46,994 nt of DNA, taken from a virus. A model generated the notes under the pieces. The model worked only from the letters and a program-made list of their open reading frames with translations. It made no database searches and was not told the origin of the DNA. This document shows, in pieces, positions 1,609 through 43,037 of this stretch. A program made the translations under genes and the position numbers. How positions within the stretch are numbered: position 1 is the first letter of the stretch; each line of letters starts with the position of its first letter. The stretch covers positions 1-46,994 of IMG/VR virus record IMGVR_UViG_3300036852_000016; one strand, given 5' to 3'.

Positions 1609-2007
1609 TTACGTTCCTGTTGTTGTTTCTCTTTCTTTTCCGGCAATGTCTAATTCTCTTTCTAACTCTGCCGTTTCTTCTTTCACAACTTCTGGTGAAT
1701 CAGGTTTTGGTGCTTCACGTAGACGCTGAGCTTTAACTCTATCCTCAGCTTCTAACATTTGTCTACGCACATGCCACGGAACTGTGCGTGGACGTGTAAT
1801 CTGTGGTGCCTCAGTTACAGGAGTAGGTTCAGGTTCTTTTAGTATTTTAGCTAGTAGTTGTTTTTTCTCATAATTTGAAAATTCAAGTTGTTGTTTCAAA
1901 GTCTCGCAAGACTGACAGACTTTTTCTTCAACAACAACTTCATTCTTCAATTTACGAGAATTATATTTTATTTCTAAGTATTGCTTATACCAGTCTAGTA
2001 GAAACAT
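1609..2007 (-). CDS. Coiled-coil phage protein with CxxC motif
   Basis: This 132-aa ORF starts at 2007, sharing one base with the terminase stop (TAATG), with GGAG upstream. It has a short hydrophobic start (MFLLDWYKQYLEIKY), a CQSC motif, a helical stretch (ETLKQQLEFSNYEKKQLLAK), a Pro/Thr linker, and then a charged region with VPWHVRRQMLEAEDR. I recognise the general type, CxxC followed by a coiled coil and 'W..RRQMLEAEDR', from other phage late operons. No function is established to my knowledge. The position directly after TerL suggests a packaging or portal-assembly accessory role. Confidence 0.75.
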   Translation of the reverse strand: MFLLDWYKQYLEIKYNSRKLKNEVVVEEKVCQSCETLKQQLEFSNYEKKQLLAKILKEPEPTPVTEAPQITRPRTVPWHVRRQMLEAEDRVKAQRLREAPKPDSPEVVKEETAELERELDIAGKERETTTGT

Positions 2008-3791
2008 TAAGCTCTCCTTCGATGATATCGACTAACCACTTGCATCTTACTTTTAGCGTCGATAGCATGCATATTACGATAGTAAGCGGTAAAGTCTTGA
2101 GTTGCTTGTAATTTACGAGTAATTTCTTCCTGTTTCTGAATTTTCTCAAACTCAGTAACAGATTCTTCAAAATATCGCTCTGCTTTATCGCAAGCATAGC
2201 GAATATCATCGTATGGGTCATCACCATCAAACTCTGCTACGTCCTCAGCAGGTTTACCAGATGATGCTTTCTTGTCGTAAGAACAAGCTTTTATTGCATC
2301 AATCATGATTGGGCAACAATTTGGATGCCCTTCATGATTAGTTTCCTCACAACAGAATATCTGTAAACGTGGAAGATTAGTCTCCGGTTCTGGAGGGTCA
2401 AATAGTGATAAATATGACTTATAGTCTAGTAATCCTTTATTTCTGAGTAGCCACATGGCATATTCCTCAGAATAAATTGGCATATCCTGTGGTGGAATTA
2501 CCGGTTTAGGAGTCCACCTTAAGTATTCATGTAGTAATAGTTTTCCTGCTACACGTGAGCCGGGAGAATTATTTGATAGTTCAATAGGTCTGCCAATGGC
2601 AGTTTCAATTTGTTGCTGAATAGTATGTTCTTGTCCCCGTTCTTGCGAGACTGATTTGCACCAAGCTAGAATGCGAGGATGTTCTCTCTCAGCAACATTC
2701 TTAACTTCTGGTGCCCATACTTCAATCTTGGTTTTCAACCAATATAACTCCTTATACAAATAGAGCCTTTTTGCAGGAGATATAGCGTAAAAACCAACAT
2801 AGTTCATAGCCGCGAAACCCCAATCCCCTATTATCATGCGCGGCCACCATGATGGGATTTCAAACGGTTGAACTACGTGTAAAGCATTATCAGGCTCATC
2901 AGGATAATGCCTATCGCGGAATTCATCAAATACCTGTCCCTGATATGCATCCCAATCACCGAACTTCCTAGCTTTCCGCTCAGCCTCAGATGGTATACCA
3001 TCAAGACGTGCAGAATAGTCTGGGTCAGCGTTAGGGTTATCAGCAACGGTCGCATGTATGTAAATCCTCTTTACATTACCTTTACCGAGGATAATTTTTC
3101 CACCCTCAGGTGCAGGTGCGACAAATCTCTTTTTAGTAAATGTATGTCCTATTCCGCCCGGCATTCCTGCCGCACGAATTATTGCTGGAATACTGGTAGG
3201 GTCAGATGACCTAACGCGAGTAAAACCAATATAGAGATAAATATACTCAGTAAAGGAAGTAAGCTCGTCTGGAGTAAAGAGATTAATCTCCATCGAGTCA
3301 TATTTGTGAACATCATTTTCTTCCTCGCAGTGTCCGAGAAATATCATTGCACCAGCATTAGACATTCCAGTTCCACCAAACTGGTCCATACGTGGAAACG
3401 TCCACGCCATGTCTGTTTTATTAAAAGTAGCTCCAAACTTAGGATAGATTTCTCGTGAGCGAGGAACTATCTCATTCCTAAGTTCAGGAAAAGTTCGACG
3501 CATGAAAACCTGTTTGAACTTAGGATTTTCATGCCATCGATGAATTAGTCCATATACAAGTAATACGTCAGATTTTCCAGAAGCGTTTCCACCTCCATAA
3601 AATCCTTCAAATATACTTGTGGGCAGGGAAAGAAACTGTTCCTGCTTCTTATTGGGTTTCCAGAACCCTTTATCAAATGCCATCTTACTAGACTGTTCCT
3701 TTATTTCTGGAGAAGGGATACAGTTAAGTTTTGCCCCAAGTGCAAAAGGGACAGCAGCGAATCTTTGTAATAGTTCTCTACGAGTAAGCAT
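2007..3791 (-). CDS. terL: Terminase large subunit (packaging ATPase/nuclease) with a Tat-like N-terminal extension
   Basis: This is the packaging motor protein, 594 aa. The Walker A motif is GGGNASGKS (about residues 66-73). A likely Walker B/DE is at FTPDEL (D175, E176). The RNase H-like nuclease domain begins near IIGDWGF (D323), with more acidic residues toward the C-terminus. The first 36 residues are odd: MLTRRELLQRFAAVPFALG reads like a twin-arginine leader, and a conventional terminase would begin at the internal MAFDKGFW (3683). The upstream start at 3791 has the better ribosome site (GGAG, 7 nt before ATG). The extension also overlaps the preceding 66-aa gene by 91 nt. TerL is confident; the exact start is less so. 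Confidence 0.95.
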   Translation of the reverse strand: MLTRRELLQRFAAVPFALGAKLNCIPSPEIKEQSSKMAFDKGFWKPNKKQEQFLSLPTSIFEGFYGGGNASGKSDVLLVYGLIHRWHENPKFKQVFMRRTFPELRNEIVPRSREIYPKFGATFNKTDMAWTFPRMDQFGGTGMSNAGAMIFLGHCEEENDVHKYDSMEINLFTPDELTSFTEYIYLYIGFTRVRSSDPTSIPAIIRAAGMPGGIGHTFTKKRFVAPAPEGGKIILGKGNVKRIYIHATVADNPNADPDYSARLDGIPSEAERKARKFGDWDAYQGQVFDEFRDRHYPDEPDNALHVVQPFEIPSWWPRMIIGDWGFAAMNYVGFYAISPAKRLYLYKELYWLKTKIEVWAPEVKNVAEREHPRILAWCKSVSQERGQEHTIQQQIETAIGRPIELSNNSPGSRVAGKLLLHEYLRWTPKPVIPPQDMPIYSEEYAMWLLRNKGLLDYKSYLSLFDPPEPETNLPRLQIFCCEETNHEGHPNCCPIMIDAIKACSYDKKASSGKPAEDVAEFDGDDPYDDIRYACDKAERYFEESVTEFEKIQKQEEITRKLQATQDFTAYYRNMHAIDAKSKMQVVSRYHRRRA

Positions 3792-18593: not shown

Positions 18594-18902
18594 ATGGCAA
18601 ATGCGTTTCAGAAGTTCTTTCAGGGGGATGCACCCACTGAACCTGATACCACACCTGTTAAGCCAAATGAACAACGGGTGAAAGGTAAGATTATCAAGGT
18701 ATCCGAAGATGGATGGGGTTTTATTTCATCCAAGGATATCAAGTTCACTCGAATCTTTTTCCACTGGACTTCCCTGAAACAAGATACTCTCAAGTTTCAG
18801 GAACTCAAAAACGGAATGAAAGTGGAATTCACACCAGTTGAAGTTGCTGACAAAGGCTGGCGTGCAATCAAGATTCGAGTGTTGAAAGATGGTGAATCGT
18901 AG
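18594..18902 (+). CDS. Cold-shock-domain RNA/ssDNA-binding protein
   Basis: The 102-aa protein has a disordered N-terminus followed by a cold-shock OB-fold (about residues 28-98): VKGKIIKVSEDGWGFISSKD with RNP1-like GWGFI and RNP2-like IFFHWTSL. Strong ribosome site (AGGAG, 7 nt). Such proteins bind single-stranded nucleic acid and melt mRNA structure. That would fit an operon full of stem-loops. A second, shorter cold-shock protein is encoded at 24678. Confidence 0.85.
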   Translation: MANAFQKFFQGDAPTEPDTTPVKPNEQRVKGKIIKVSEDGWGFISSKDIKFTRIFFHWTSLKQDTLKFQELKNGMKVEFTPVEVADKGWRAIKIRVLKDGES

Positions 18903-19191
18903 AGCTTTTCTACGCATCCTTGCACTTGGGGTAGTCGGTCATGAGTTAGATATTGACCGATTACTCTGGGTGCCTGGTGCAAAAAAGATATTCATTCCCA
19001 AACCGGGATTAACTAATTCGCAAATAATGGCGGCTGAATGGGCGCGATTTGCTCCCAAAATAGCTACACTATTTGAAAGAGATTCTACCTTCTACACATT
19101 AATTAACAAAAAAGAATTACCAACAGTATCTTCAAGAGATATGAGGATACCTCTGACTATTATACCGGGAGGAAATAATGAGTCTGACTAG
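18889..19191 (+). CDS. Tat-like leader fused to a copy of the capsid N-terminal arm
   Basis: The 100-aa ORF overlaps the cold-shock gene by 14 nt. Residues 1-35 look like a twin-arginine leader (NRRAFLRILALGVVG) followed by DRLLWVPGAKKIFIPKP. Residues about 48-95 match the start of this phage's major capsid protein (41775-43037). APKIATLFERDSTFYTLI parallels LPKIRVLFERDDKFYANI, and SSRDMRIPLTIIPGG parallels SNRQMRVPLELRPGG. The rest of the capsid protein is absent. It is transcribed with replication genes, not with the head genes. It may bind capsid subunits or a capsid-arm partner, or be a relic of recombination. Confidence 0.8.
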   Translation: MVNRRAFLRILALGVVGHELDIDRLLWVPGAKKIFIPKPGLTNSQIMAAEWARFAPKIATLFERDSTFYTLINKKELPTVSSRDMRIPLTIIPGGNNESD

Positions 19192-19783: not shown

Positions 19784-19940
19784 TATAACTAGTCCTACTA
19801 CTAATCAACAAACTGGTAATACTTGTCCTGAATGTGGCAAACAGTGGTTAGATGATAAACCTACACCAGGTATAATTCATCGAACTAAATTTTGTGATAA
19901 CTGTGCTTTCTGGCACGATAGCGAACCTGATAAAAAATGA
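19764..19940 (+). CDS. Small zinc-ribbon protein upstream of the polymerase
   Basis: ATG 19764 begins inside the preceding gene. The 58-aa product has TCPECGKQW and KFCDNCAFWH, two CxxC knuckles with about 20 residues between. Its stop overlaps the polymerase start (ATGA), so the two are translationally coupled. Confidence 0.7.
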   Translation: MLTKPPDITSPTTNQQTGNTCPECGKQWLDDKPTPGIIHRTKFCDNCAFWHDSEPDKK

Positions 19941-22600
19941 GCGACGATAAGAAATACGTAGCGGGGCATGGGCCAATAGGCGCGAAGCTTATGATACTAG
20001 GGGATGCCCCTACGTATAAGGATACCGCTTCAGGTAAAGCATTTACAGACTCAAAAGAACTTAACCAACTATTACCAGACACCGGTATTCGTAAAGAAAA
20101 CTGTTGGCTGACTACGGTTTCTAAATATGAAGTCCCACCTAATACTGGGAAGAAAAGAATTCCATTTGCTGTCCGTGCCAAAAATGCTGGCATTGATATA
20201 GAACAACAACTCCATGAATTGCAGGAAGAAATTAATGGAATCAAACCCAACTGTATTTTGGCTGTCGGCGGAACTCCTTTATGGGCACTCTCTGGAAAAA
20301 CTAAAATTGGCAACTACCGTGGAAGTATCATGCATGGCATGGGAGTTAAATTCGTCCCGAGTTATAATCCAGCTCACTTGTCATGGCACGCGACAGATGT
20401 TGAATTCAAAGGATACTGGAATCGACAAATAATGATTTTCGACTTTAAGCGTGCATATGCACAAAGTCGATATCCAGAATTAATCCTTCCCTCGCGCACA
20501 CTCGAAATCTGTAAGAATAGCGCACAGCTAGCCGAATTCAGACAGCGATACAAGGGTAAGCTTAGAATGTCTGTGGACATTGAAGCTAACGGAACTTGTA
20601 TCCCTGTTTGTATTGGACTAGCTTTCAATAAGCATCATGGGATGTGTGTTCCACTATGGAATACAGATGGTATCTCTACTATTCCCTCAGCAGACTTAGT
20701 TCAATGCTGGATAATTCTAGCGGAGATGCTCTATGAAAACGAAATCATCGGACAAAATTTCAATTACGATAGGGATAAAATTAAACGACTTGGTTTCATT
20801 ATACGAAAGCTCGCCTCCGATACCATGCTTAAGGCTCATGCGATTAATCCAGAACTCCCTAAAGGACTCGCATTTAATACCTCCCTCTTTACAGAAGAAC
20901 CTTTCTATAAAGATGAAGGTATGTATAAAGGGAAAATCGAAGATTTACTCAGTGGATGCGCACGAGACGCATGTGTTACATTTGAAGTAGATGAGAATAT
21001 GAATGCAGACCTAGATGAATTAGGTCAGCGTCAATTCTTTGAGAATTTCCTGATGAAATTCCCTGACTTGTATTGGGAAATAGAAAAGCAAGGATTTCGA
21101 GTAGACCATCCTGAACGTGACCAACTATTACGTAAATATGTTGAGTGGGATGAGAAGTGTCGATATGAACTATTCAAACTCACTGGTGCAGAAATTAATG
21201 TTAATAGTCCTAAACAAATTGGTATACTACTGTGGGAGAATCTTAAACTTCCTCGAAAAGAAAGCACAGGTGAAGAAGAAATTACTGCTTTACTTAATTC
21301 TCCCACTGCCATCAAAAAGCCGGAACATAGAAGAATATGTGAGCTTATTCTTGAGGACCGTCGTGTTAGAAAATCCATCTCTACATATCTCATGGCACTT
21401 CCAGACTACGATGGTAGAATGCGAACGACGTACTTTCCTTGTCTTGATACAGGAAGAAGTTCCACAGGACAACAAGACCCACCAATTAGACCAATCGTCG
21501 AAGTTATAGATGAAAATGGAAAGAAGAAAGATAAGGTATTAGGCACAGCCTTCCAAACCATGACAAAGCATGGTGATATCGGTGCAGACATACGTGGTAT
21601 GTATGTGCCCGATACCTTCCACTTTGAAACCATTGATGATATAATGGTTCAAATAGAGGAAGAAGAAGAATTTGTTCAAGCTGACTCATCACAAGCTGAG
21701 GCCAGAGTAGTATGGTTACTCGCAGACGATGATGAAGCTTTGAAATTGGTAGATGAAATAGACTACCATGCTCACACAGCTACATGGTTCTTTGGACGTA
21801 ACGAAGAACTATTTGATTACGACAAAAAGAAGTTAGGCTATGAACATCCAATTCGATTCTGTGGAAAAACTCTACGCCACGCGGGGCATCTTGGCGCTGG
21901 TAAACGACGTGCAGCCATCGAAGTTAATACCCAAGCGCGTAAGTATAAAATTCCAATCGCAATCACTGAACAGATTGCAGAACGAGCTTTACAAATATTC
22001 CACAGTAAGCAGCCTAGAATACAACAAGTATTTCAGACTGGTATTGTAGAGTGTTTGAGGAAGAACCGTCAACTAGTAGCAGGATTGCCATACGGAATAG
22101 ATGCACCTGCTGGTGGTAAAAGAACATTCTTTGAGCGTTGGGGAGAAGAACTTAATAGACAAGCATTCTCTTACATACCACAACGCACCGTCTCAGATAA
22201 CACTAAAGCTGCTGCAATTAGAATTCGTGAACGTATACCACACATTAAGATTGTGATGGAATCTCACGACGCACTCTTGTTCAGTATACCCATCAGTAAG
22301 AAGATGGAATGGATTCCTATTATTAAAAAGGAGATGGAACGACCAATAGATTTTTCACAATGCTCACTACGTAGACACAAACTAAAGATTCCGTGTGAAG
22401 TGGAAGTTGGTAAGAACTATAGGGACTTCAAGAAGTTCAAGGATATACCAATTATTGCTGAACCTACGGAATTACTAAACATGCCACCTAAGACTGTAAC
22501 TGAGTCTTTCCTCGCGTCTGTTATACCACCAGACACTAGGCTTACAGATATCATTTACAGTCATGACAAGACTATTCGGAAATTTGAGGTAGGAGAATAA
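19937..22600 (+). CDS. polA: Family A DNA polymerase with N-terminal UDG-like domain
   Basis: This 887-aa protein has three parts. Residues 1-175 resemble family 4 uracil-DNA glycosylases (AKLMILGDAPTYKDTASGKA, then ENCWLTTVSKYE), but the usual GEAPG is GDAPT, so activity is doubtful. A 3'-5' exonuclease follows: D214/E216 (SVDIEANG), D278 (FNYD) and D344 (CARDAC). A glycine stands where Tyr is expected four residues before D344. The polymerase has motif A D583 (ADSSQAEAR), an odd motif B with K644 and R647 (GKTLRHAGHLGAGKRRA), and motif C H777-D778-A779. The usual HDE is therefore HDA. Similar UDG-polymerase fusions are known from SPO1-like phages. Confidence 0.93.
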   Translation: MSDDKKYVAGHGPIGAKLMILGDAPTYKDTASGKAFTDSKELNQLLPDTGIRKENCWLTTVSKYEVPPNTGKKRIPFAVRAKNAGIDIEQQLHELQEEINGIKPNCILAVGGTPLWALSGKTKIGNYRGSIMHGMGVKFVPSYNPAHLSWHATDVEFKGYWNRQIMIFDFKRAYAQSRYPELILPSRTLEICKNSAQLAEFRQRYKGKLRMSVDIEANGTCIPVCIGLAFNKHHGMCVPLWNTDGISTIPSADLVQCWIILAEMLYENEIIGQNFNYDRDKIKRLGFIIRKLASDTMLKAHAINPELPKGLAFNTSLFTEEPFYKDEGMYKGKIEDLLSGCARDACVTFEVDENMNADLDELGQRQFFENFLMKFPDLYWEIEKQGFRVDHPERDQLLRKYVEWDEKCRYELFKLTGAEINVNSPKQIGILLWENLKLPRKESTGEEEITALLNSPTAIKKPEHRRICELILEDRRVRKSISTYLMALPDYDGRMRTTYFPCLDTGRSSTGQQDPPIRPIVEVIDENGKKKDKVLGTAFQTMTKHGDIGADIRGMYVPDTFHFETIDDIMVQIEEEEEFVQADSSQAEARVVWLLADDDEALKLVDEIDYHAHTATWFFGRNEELFDYDKKKLGYEHPIRFCGKTLRHAGHLGAGKRRAAIEVNTQARKYKIPIAITEQIAERALQIFHSKQPRIQQVFQTGIVECLRKNRQLVAGLPYGIDAPAGGKRTFFERWGEELNRQAFSYIPQRTVSDNTKAAAIRIRERIPHIKIVMESHDALLFSIPISKKMEWIPIIKKEMERPIDFSQCSLRRHKLKIPCEVEVGKNYRDFKKFKDIPIIAEPTELLNMPPKTVTESFLASVIPPDTRLTDIIYSHDKTIRKFEVGE

Positions 22601-41774: not shown

Positions 41775-43037
41775 TTAATAACCAGAAGGAACCGCCAACG
41801 TATCAATATAGGCAGTAGCAGCAGGGTTCGAGACGAACGTCTGCATACCATTGACCATATAGAATATGTCAGCAGTAACCACACCACCCGAAGGGCCACG
41901 AATTTCGAAGATTTTACGTCCATCGGTAGTGTAGAATCCGATAGGCAAAATCTCCGCGCGTCCCCACACTTCATCGACAACAAAGTCGATTCTAGTTCTG
42001 TCCCAATTAAATGAACCAGTAACATTGGAACCGGCCATTTGCATACCGGAACCTTTACCATTGCCGAAATACATGTTCAGAGACTCATCCTTAGCAGCCT
42101 TCTGAATCATGATTACAAGCTGACCAATTTCCTCGTATGCCTGAATCTGAGCAGGATGTGTCCAGACACGAGGATTAAAATCATTGTCGATTCCTACTCT
42201 ATCGCCAATTCGATTAATCGCCAAACGCGGGAATGGAAGCGCCAAAGCACCACCACCAGCATTTACACGATTAGAACGAATTTCAGGAGTAGCTGCTCGA
42301 CTAAAGCCAAGCCATGTTCCTGCAGAAGCATTGCTGTGATGATAAGGCACACCAAACAATGCTGGCAGTGAAGCAGGATTAGCAATACCATTAACAACTA
42401 GTCTATCAGTAGCGATTGCGCCAGCGATAGCAGGTGTTACGTCAATCTGTTTATTTGCAACATCCCACTTGGTAATCAGCCCACTTCCCCGAAGGGTTGC
42501 AAGTGTAGCATCGAATACCTGTATGGTCTGTCCAAATCGAACAAGCTTTGCACCAAATCCATCGGTGCCAAGAGTATAAGTATCAACGCCCGCAGCAGTT
42601 GCAACAGCAGAAATAGTGCCCACGGCACCAGTTCCGTCTTGCATCATCTGAGCGTCTAACTGTCTACGCAGTTCATCCAATGCACTCGCAGTAAGTCTGC
42701 GAATTCCATTGGTGATAGATTTTCTTTCGTCATCAGTTGACCACTGTGTCAACTTCGTATATTCGATGTTCTCGGACACGAATACAGAAGTTACGACAGC
42801 TTTGTCAAAAGTGGGTCCACCACCACGTCCCAAGTCTCCGCCATCAGGATTGAAATACTGAAAGCTTCCACCGGGACGAAGTTCAAGTGGAACTCTCATT
42901 TGGCGATTCGATATTTTTTCTACGTCACGCTTTTTAATGTTGGCGTAGAATTTATCGTCTCGCTCAAAGAGAACGCGAATCTTTGGAAGGACTTTCTCCA
43001 ATTCCAAAGCCGCTACTTGAGCTTCGACAACTGCCAT
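41775..43037 (-). CDS. Major capsid protein
   Basis: The 420-aa protein follows the scaffold gene in transcription order. It has an N-terminal arm (LPKIRVLFERDDKFYANIKK, SNRQMRVPLELRPGG), then YTKLTQWSTDDERKSITNGI with TASALDELRRQLDAQMMQDG. The C-terminal half has EEIGQLVIMIQKAAKDESLN and RTRIDFVVDEVWGRAEI. Long arm, spine-like helix and beta P-domain are compatible with an HK97-type fold. The N-terminal 60 residues are mimicked by the early protein at 18889-19191. No protease cleavage site is apparent. Confidence 0.85.
   Translation of the reverse strand: MAVVEAQVAALELEKVLPKIRVLFERDDKFYANIKKRDVEKISNRQMRVPLELRPGGSFQYFNPDGGDLGRGGGPTFDKAVVTSVFVSENIEYTKLTQWSTDDERKSITNGIRRLTASALDELRRQLDAQMMQDGTGAVGTISAVATAAGVDTYTLGTDGFGAKLVRFGQTIQVFDATLATLRGSGLITKWDVANKQIDVTPAIAGAIATDRLVVNGIANPASLPALFGVPYHHSNASAGTWLGFSRAATPEIRSNRVNAGGGALALPFPRLAINRIGDRVGIDNDFNPRVWTHPAQIQAYEEIGQLVIMIQKAAKDESLNMYFGNGKGSGMQMAGSNVTGSFNWDRTRIDFVVDEVWGRAEILPIGFYTTDGRKIFEIRGPSGGVVTADIFYMVNGMQTFVSNPAATAYIDTLAVPSGY

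Follow-up and report, generated by a model that had tools for sequence, protein, structure and literature searches.

Phages encode inner-membrane proteins that act in superinfection exclusion, such as Imm and Sp of T4, gp15 of HK97 and SieA of P22. To our knowledge, no superinfection-exclusion protein is made of capsid sequence, and we know of no phage gene class that is built from pieces of capsid protein. On the host side, CapRel-SJ46 binds the major capsid protein (MCP) of SECPhi27, and the Gol peptide of T4 gp23 activates Lit (PMC9712102). A TIR system is reported to sense capsids (PMC11312562). In these systems, a piece of MCP can be what the host factor recognises (PMC9712102, PMC11312562). 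In the mouse, the gag-derived restriction factor Fv1 is a capsid-like sequence that acts on viruses as a separate gene (PMC3948346).

Here we analyse a phage genome stretch of 46,994 nucleotides (the window; IMG/VR record IMGVR_UViG_3300036852_000016) in which a small gene encodes a Tat-like leader followed by a fragment of MCP. Based on sequence comparison, the encoded protein is a member of a widespread set that joins a putative membrane- or Tat-directed leader to an exchangeable MCP fragment. Like T4 Imm and Sp, HK97 gp15 and P22 SieA, these leader proteins are small, accessory and apparently membrane-directed phage proteins; we found no sequence match between them and the four exclusion proteins. 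In the CapRel-SJ46, Lit/Gol and TIR systems the trigger is the phage's own MCP, whereas the bait proposed here would be a separate, leader-tagged gene. Fv1 is a host gene of retroviral origin, whereas here phage genes combine an export-like leader with fragments that are very short; the likeness is one of analogy.

The tails of the leader proteins share homology with short stretches of the P22-type coat protein (PF11651) and of PHROG 14242. Unlike members of these families, the leader genes hold short MCP pieces that differ between phages, carry a leader ahead of the capsid piece and lie away from the MCP gene. An earlier, sequence-only reading of the window knew of no described family with this make-up, and our searches of libraries and open-access text agree. 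No model in Pfam, PHROGs, NCBIfam or PADLOC names the family or ties it to known defence or anti-defence families (seven members were run against PADLOC, without a match), and a PDB sequence search returned nothing that describes a leader-capsid make-up. Among 50,697 phage records there was no named match; the matches that occurred were to the capsid genes, at a single place in each record. In the open-access literature we found no account of Tat together with phage capsid, of capsid decoys or of exclusion by truncated capsid. We regard the class as new in its make-up; its function is putative.

The leader-capsid gene of the window

The gene (18889-19191, plus strand, ATG start) encodes a protein of 100 aa, MVNRRAFLRILALGVVGHELDIDRLLWVPGAKKIFIPKPGLTNSQIMAAEWARFAPKIATLFERDSTFYTLINKKELPTVSSRDMRIPLTIIPGGNNESD. 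Its leader, delimited with a leader HMM and alignments, spans residues 1-37 (18889-18999, plus strand), MVNRRAFLRILALGVVGHELDIDRLLWVPGAKKIFIP, and contains an RR motif and the motif (D)xDRLLWVPGxKxIFxP. The capsid-like tail, residues 41-96 (19009-19176, plus strand), has the core LFERDxxFY and is homologous to residues 3-58 of the window's own MCP, with 24 of 56 positions identical (43%) in a gapless alignment (BLASTP, single comparison, E=1e-14). In a tblastn search of the whole record, the small protein matched only itself and the MCP. The sequence-only reading had put the match at about residues 48-95; the homology to the capsid N-terminal arm is real, but it starts at residue 41. It had also noted that the remaining capsid is missing from the gene, and this holds: only MCP residues 3-58 are represented, and the complete capsid domain set is absent.

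We assign the long ORF at 41775-43037 (minus strand, 420 aa) as the MCP because it matches PHROG 14242 'major head protein' (E=3.6e-8) and is positioned after portal- and scaffold-like ORFs; the assignment also draws on relatives. Residues 3-58 are its N-terminal arm. The AlphaFold model of the leader protein (mean pLDDT 61.8) has little apart from a helix at residues 43-74. That of the window MCP is poor (pLDDT 45.8), and a fold search on it was left out.

The Tat-like leader

Translations and the leader HMM recovered 88 distinct proteins, from IMG/VR contigs and from a MAG, with the consensus MxRRxFLxxL...LDPERLLWVPGxKTIFLP or a variant of it; the RR and WVPG motifs are its invariant positions. 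Like Tat signal peptides (PF10518, TIGR01409), the leader has an N-terminal RRxFLK-like motif and then a hydrophobic stretch. Unlike them, it continues after this stretch into a conserved (D)P/IxE/DRLLWVPGxKxIFxP block, the stretch itself is short in the window clade, and the leader proteins lack a conserved AxA site; no cleavage site is evident in the leader alignment. In the window leader, described earlier as twin-arginine-type, NRRAFLR fits the motif, but the protein passes no TAT model. Two relatives, L110 (18.3 bits) and L123 (17.0 bits), pass NCBIfam TIGR01409 (cut-off 16.7), L111 is just under the cut-off, and the window protein and two others do not pass. Matches to PF10518 are all under the cut-off, with none for the window protein. 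Tat export of the leader proteins is plausible.

The reading frame of the full-length large terminase of the window (2007-3791, minus strand; PF03237) also carries a Tat-like RR leader, MLTRRELLQRFAAVPFALGAKLN, ahead of MAFDKGFWKPNKKQE, as seen by N-terminal comparison. About nine of its closest relatives have this leader as well, and most other relatives start at MAFDKGFWKPNKKQE.

Capsid fragments behind the leader

The same pairing recurs in metagenomic phages. Viral contigs were scanned for DNA encoding W-V-P-G-x-K-x-[IV]-F-x-P, which yielded 39 loci, and a second pattern yielded 93. In GTDB genomes, one MAG contig labelled Acidobacteria has a leader gene, and another member occurs in a further MAG of the same phylum. 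Capsid fragments led to a few more Tat-like starts that lack the WVPG block. The carriers are many uncultured soil-type phages. Close IMG/VR relatives share the leader and the arm of the window protein, with varying arm ends (FYRILSKEKIDVSN and FYRLLSKDKL, each followed by a stop) that run into the start of the next gene.

Among 76 records with leader genes, a P22-type coat protein is over the Pfam cut-off in 33, and a window-type MCP is present in 11 others. When tails were compared by BLAST with all ORFs of their own contig, the MCP came out best in about 25 contigs; a clear non-MCP match below E=0.01 was seen for one tail only, that of G040. MCP HMMs (E<0.05) matched 46 of 83 tails and, with the same profiles, zero to one of 83 shuffled tails (20 rounds); these HMMs were built from MCPs of the same contigs, and the result is not independent of the own-contig BLAST. 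The window tail scores 52.9 bits with an MCP HMM (E=1.2e-16). About 45% of the 83 tails had no recognised source among the MCP HMMs.

Several regions of the MCP are represented. The window-type N-terminal arm is found in 16 aligned members, L109 carries a central MCP piece (LFGIPYHQSNAHTGTWLG against LFGVPYHHSNASAGTWLG) and L094 (858-1304) the MCP C-terminus. Tails of the P22 type derive from the N-terminus (L092, L182, L276, L181), the I-domain (L101, L107, L111) or the C-terminus (L123, L146, L182), and the tail of L127 is a chimera of N- and C-terminal MCP pieces. PHROG 283 'major head protein' gave weak matches to three P22-type tails, at positions 251-279, 306-375 and 9-36, which agrees with the use of several MCP regions. 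The weak match of phrog_9328 to one tail was not used, because this profile also has matches in 9 of 14 control genomes. Since hhalign does not link the two MCP families (probability 3%), the leader became fused to capsid pieces on at least two occasions, and probably on more, because different, non-homologous MCP parts are used. The leader-capsid fusion first noticed in the window is thus real and conserved, but it is confined neither to this phage nor to the N-terminal arm.

We also approached the association from the capsid side, using other ORFs of at least 45 aa that match the MCP of their contig at E<0.01, with a Tat-like start scored by a fixed rule. Over 43 contigs, such a start is present in 22 of 27 MCP-matching ORFs and in 85 of 15,478 other ORFs (0.55%; Fisher p=2e-44); most of these contigs were chosen for their leader gene, which inflates the leader count, and the MCP match of the tails is unexplained by this choice. 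Among the five exceptions, those of G007 and G060 have a leader that fails the rule, that of G047 has RK in place of RR, that of G056 is the MCP itself across the contig ends, and only that of G046 is truly without a leader. In G061, the MCP and the three leader genes, which are on separate contigs of a MAG, may stem from more than one phage.

Some loci hold more than one leader gene. On contig G021 (L225, 15823-19158, minus strand), five RR-leader genes stand in tandem, two of which contain rearranged pieces of P22-type coat protein, one of about 220 aa. Three overlapping leader genes of L182 (4049-5107, minus strand) mirror the layout of the gene for a P22-type coat protein, carrying in turn pieces of that protein's N-terminus, I-domain and C-terminus. 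A second recurring tail, VEALMASIGGPLVVG...LTDQEYALLVDRGRR, whose source is unrecognised, occurs in L092 (3184-3615), L172 (5084-5563) and L106 (6531-7244), and in L092 and L172 its gene lies close to a gene bearing a capsid N-terminal piece. In L105 (9218-9586, minus strand) and L115 (4157-4501, minus strand), the xxFPL/VPL segment of the arm is apparently duplicated within the tail. L216 on contig G016 (12002-12316, minus strand) has one in-frame stop inside the capsid fragment (LTID-stop-VTREALKVLKNQL), which may be a nonsense mutation, a sequencing error or a site of stop readthrough.

Selection and exchange of tails

Where dS is measurable, dN/dS (NG86) is 0.03-0.27 for leaders and 0.08-0.33 for tails, with 0.08 for the I-domain tail in the L101/L111 comparison. 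Therefore, leader and tail are both constrained as protein, by purifying selection. A pseudogene reading was rejected on the values for leader and tail together (0.03-0.33). In nine of ten pairs, L101/L111 being the exception, the leader has diverged less than the tail at silent sites (pooled p=3e-10, five independent pairs), and the block of low silent divergence comprises the cold-shock gene and the leader. Between the window and its relatives, nucleotide identity is 80-97% across this block and drops to 63-70% in the tail. Between G010 and G017 it passes from 83-98% to 51-53% in the tail and back to 73-83% after it. Between G009 and the window, identity is 99.5% for the MCP and about 70% for the small protein. 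The simplest reading would be recombination that broke at the leader-tail junction, with tails as exchangeable cassettes; extra nucleotide-level constraint in the leader would be an alternative cause of the contrast in silent divergence.

No arm of the window clade has the MCP of its own phage as best match among 94 MCPs. For the window arm, the own MCP ranks 77th (43% identity), the best being the MCP of L311 (59%), and across the arms of the clade its rank ranges from 9th to 89th. Position 6 of the arm is Ile in all 19 arms examined and Val in 99% of MCPs; because this Ile is shared by all 19, the window-clade arms form one old family. Positions conserved in the MCP are retained in the arms more than variable ones (63% vs 32%), with E10, F22, D25, F28 and Y29 invariant and R24 nearly so. 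We rejected the idea that the tail was copied recently from the MCP of the window itself, given the rank of that MCP and the derived residues shared among arms. Capture of the arm from a rival phage, for which the closer L311 MCP would speak, is weakened by the fact that these residues are common to all arms of the clade.

Genome context and distribution

The window leader gene lies between a cold-shock-domain gene (18594-18902, plus strand; PF00313, E=3.7e-10), which overlaps its start, and a gene encoding a UDG-DNA polymerase A. Upstream are genes for an SNF2/SprT helicase, a PD-(D/E)XK nuclease and an AAA protein. The polymerase (19937-22600, plus strand) has an N-terminal uracil-DNA-glycosylase-superfamily domain, and phage SPO1 has a similar arrangement. 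In every window-type contig examined, the leader gene is on the strand opposite to the MCP, and the earlier placement of the gene in a replication operon without head genes is borne out, the head genes being on the opposite strand. Judging from gene content, the leader gene region is probably expressed early. In P22-type contigs, the leader gene is mostly 4-10 kb from the MCP and often on the same strand.

The gene is patchily distributed, being present in 4 of 17 near-complete contigs (at least 44 kb) found by MCP alone; for one of the 13 without it, the check was by profile only. Of 37 contigs, 6 have an integrase (PF00589), none of them of the window type; as integrase is this rare, infection would be mostly lytic.

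Discussion

The gene shows the pattern of an arms race. That unrelated phages share one leader and vary the capsid fragments behind it points to a common capsid-recognising target. It is rather probable that at least two unlinked capsid lineages build proteins from this leader and swapped capsid fragments, as mimicry directed against capsid-sensing immunity or against rivals.

For the more specific role, we tentatively favour, at a probability of about 0.38, a decoy or sequestering function against host factors that recognise MCP, slightly ahead of the poisoning of rival capsids. The leader would set the protein at the inner membrane, either as an uncleaved anchor or by export through Tat, and the capsid fragment would mimic the MCP surface as bait for an MCP-recognising protein. 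The first-choice partner would be a host factor that senses capsid protein, of the kind of CapRel-SJ46, Lit/Gol or the TIR system, because MCPs are known immune triggers (PMC9712102, PMC11312562). Such a sensor would be occupied or removed ahead of late capsid synthesis. More speculatively, the membrane leader could withdraw it from the cytoplasm, so that the bait need not trigger it.

Some points weigh against a decoy. A fragment with the sensor epitope could activate rather than block the sensor, as Gol does activate Lit, and the tails do not track the own MCP, as those of a self-protecting decoy might be expected to do. The share of tails without a recognised source counts against it. Known sensors also watch other virion proteins, for example tail proteins, and it likewise counts against a decoy that almost no fragments of such proteins are found behind the leader.

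Alternatively, by analogy with Fv1, a membrane-tethered fragment may co-assemble with or bind the MCP of a co- or superinfecting phage and spoil its capsids. Such exclusion of competitors is possible, if doubtful. A self-assembling lattice as the target would be expected to make the MCP almost the sole source of fragments, which it is; the use of several MCP regions, the better match of the window tail to another phage's MCP than to its own, the early operon and the patchy distribution would also fit. However, the window-clade arms are one old family rather than fresh copies of rival MCPs, and the own MCP, with ranks from 9th to 89th, is not clearly avoided.

We consider it unlikely that the leader is the active part, for example by blocking or loading the Tat translocase, with the capsid piece as a passenger. 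The leader is more conserved, its RR and WVPG are the invariant positions, and it stands before many tails, about 45% of them of unrecognised origin. Against this, the recognisable passengers come overwhelmingly from one protein, the MCP, are under purifying selection (as in the I-domain tail) and keep the MCP-core positions.

Still less probable is a tether or nucleator for assembly of the phage's own heads at the membrane. A capsid-arm ligand on a membrane leader would suit this, and packaging parts might reach the membrane, given that the large terminase has an RR leader in the window and in its closest relatives. However, the leader gene is missing from at least 12 near-complete sister phages that share the MCP type, the same leader precedes fragments of different MCP regions, the operon is an early one, and the tail does not track the own MCP. 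A regulator of the phage's own capsid, which the sequence-only reading had listed as one option beside a decoy, a membrane-tethered ligand and superinfection exclusion, becomes less likely with an arm at 43% identity to the own MCP and 59% to the best other, with the gene absent from most sister phages and with other capsid pieces behind the same leader. Functionless remains of decaying capsid-gene duplicates or chance fusions, to which the fragmentary tails, their variable ends and the leader gene of G016 broken by its stop might point, are very improbable given dN/dS well under 1 in leader and tail, a leader common to unrelated phages, a gene far from the MCP gene and the deep conservation of one arm family.

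With a decoy for host capsid sensors as the preferred reading, the leader motif can serve at once to search for further members, and leader-capsid genes may offer a handle on new capsid-sensing defences, or on a new route by which phages block one another.
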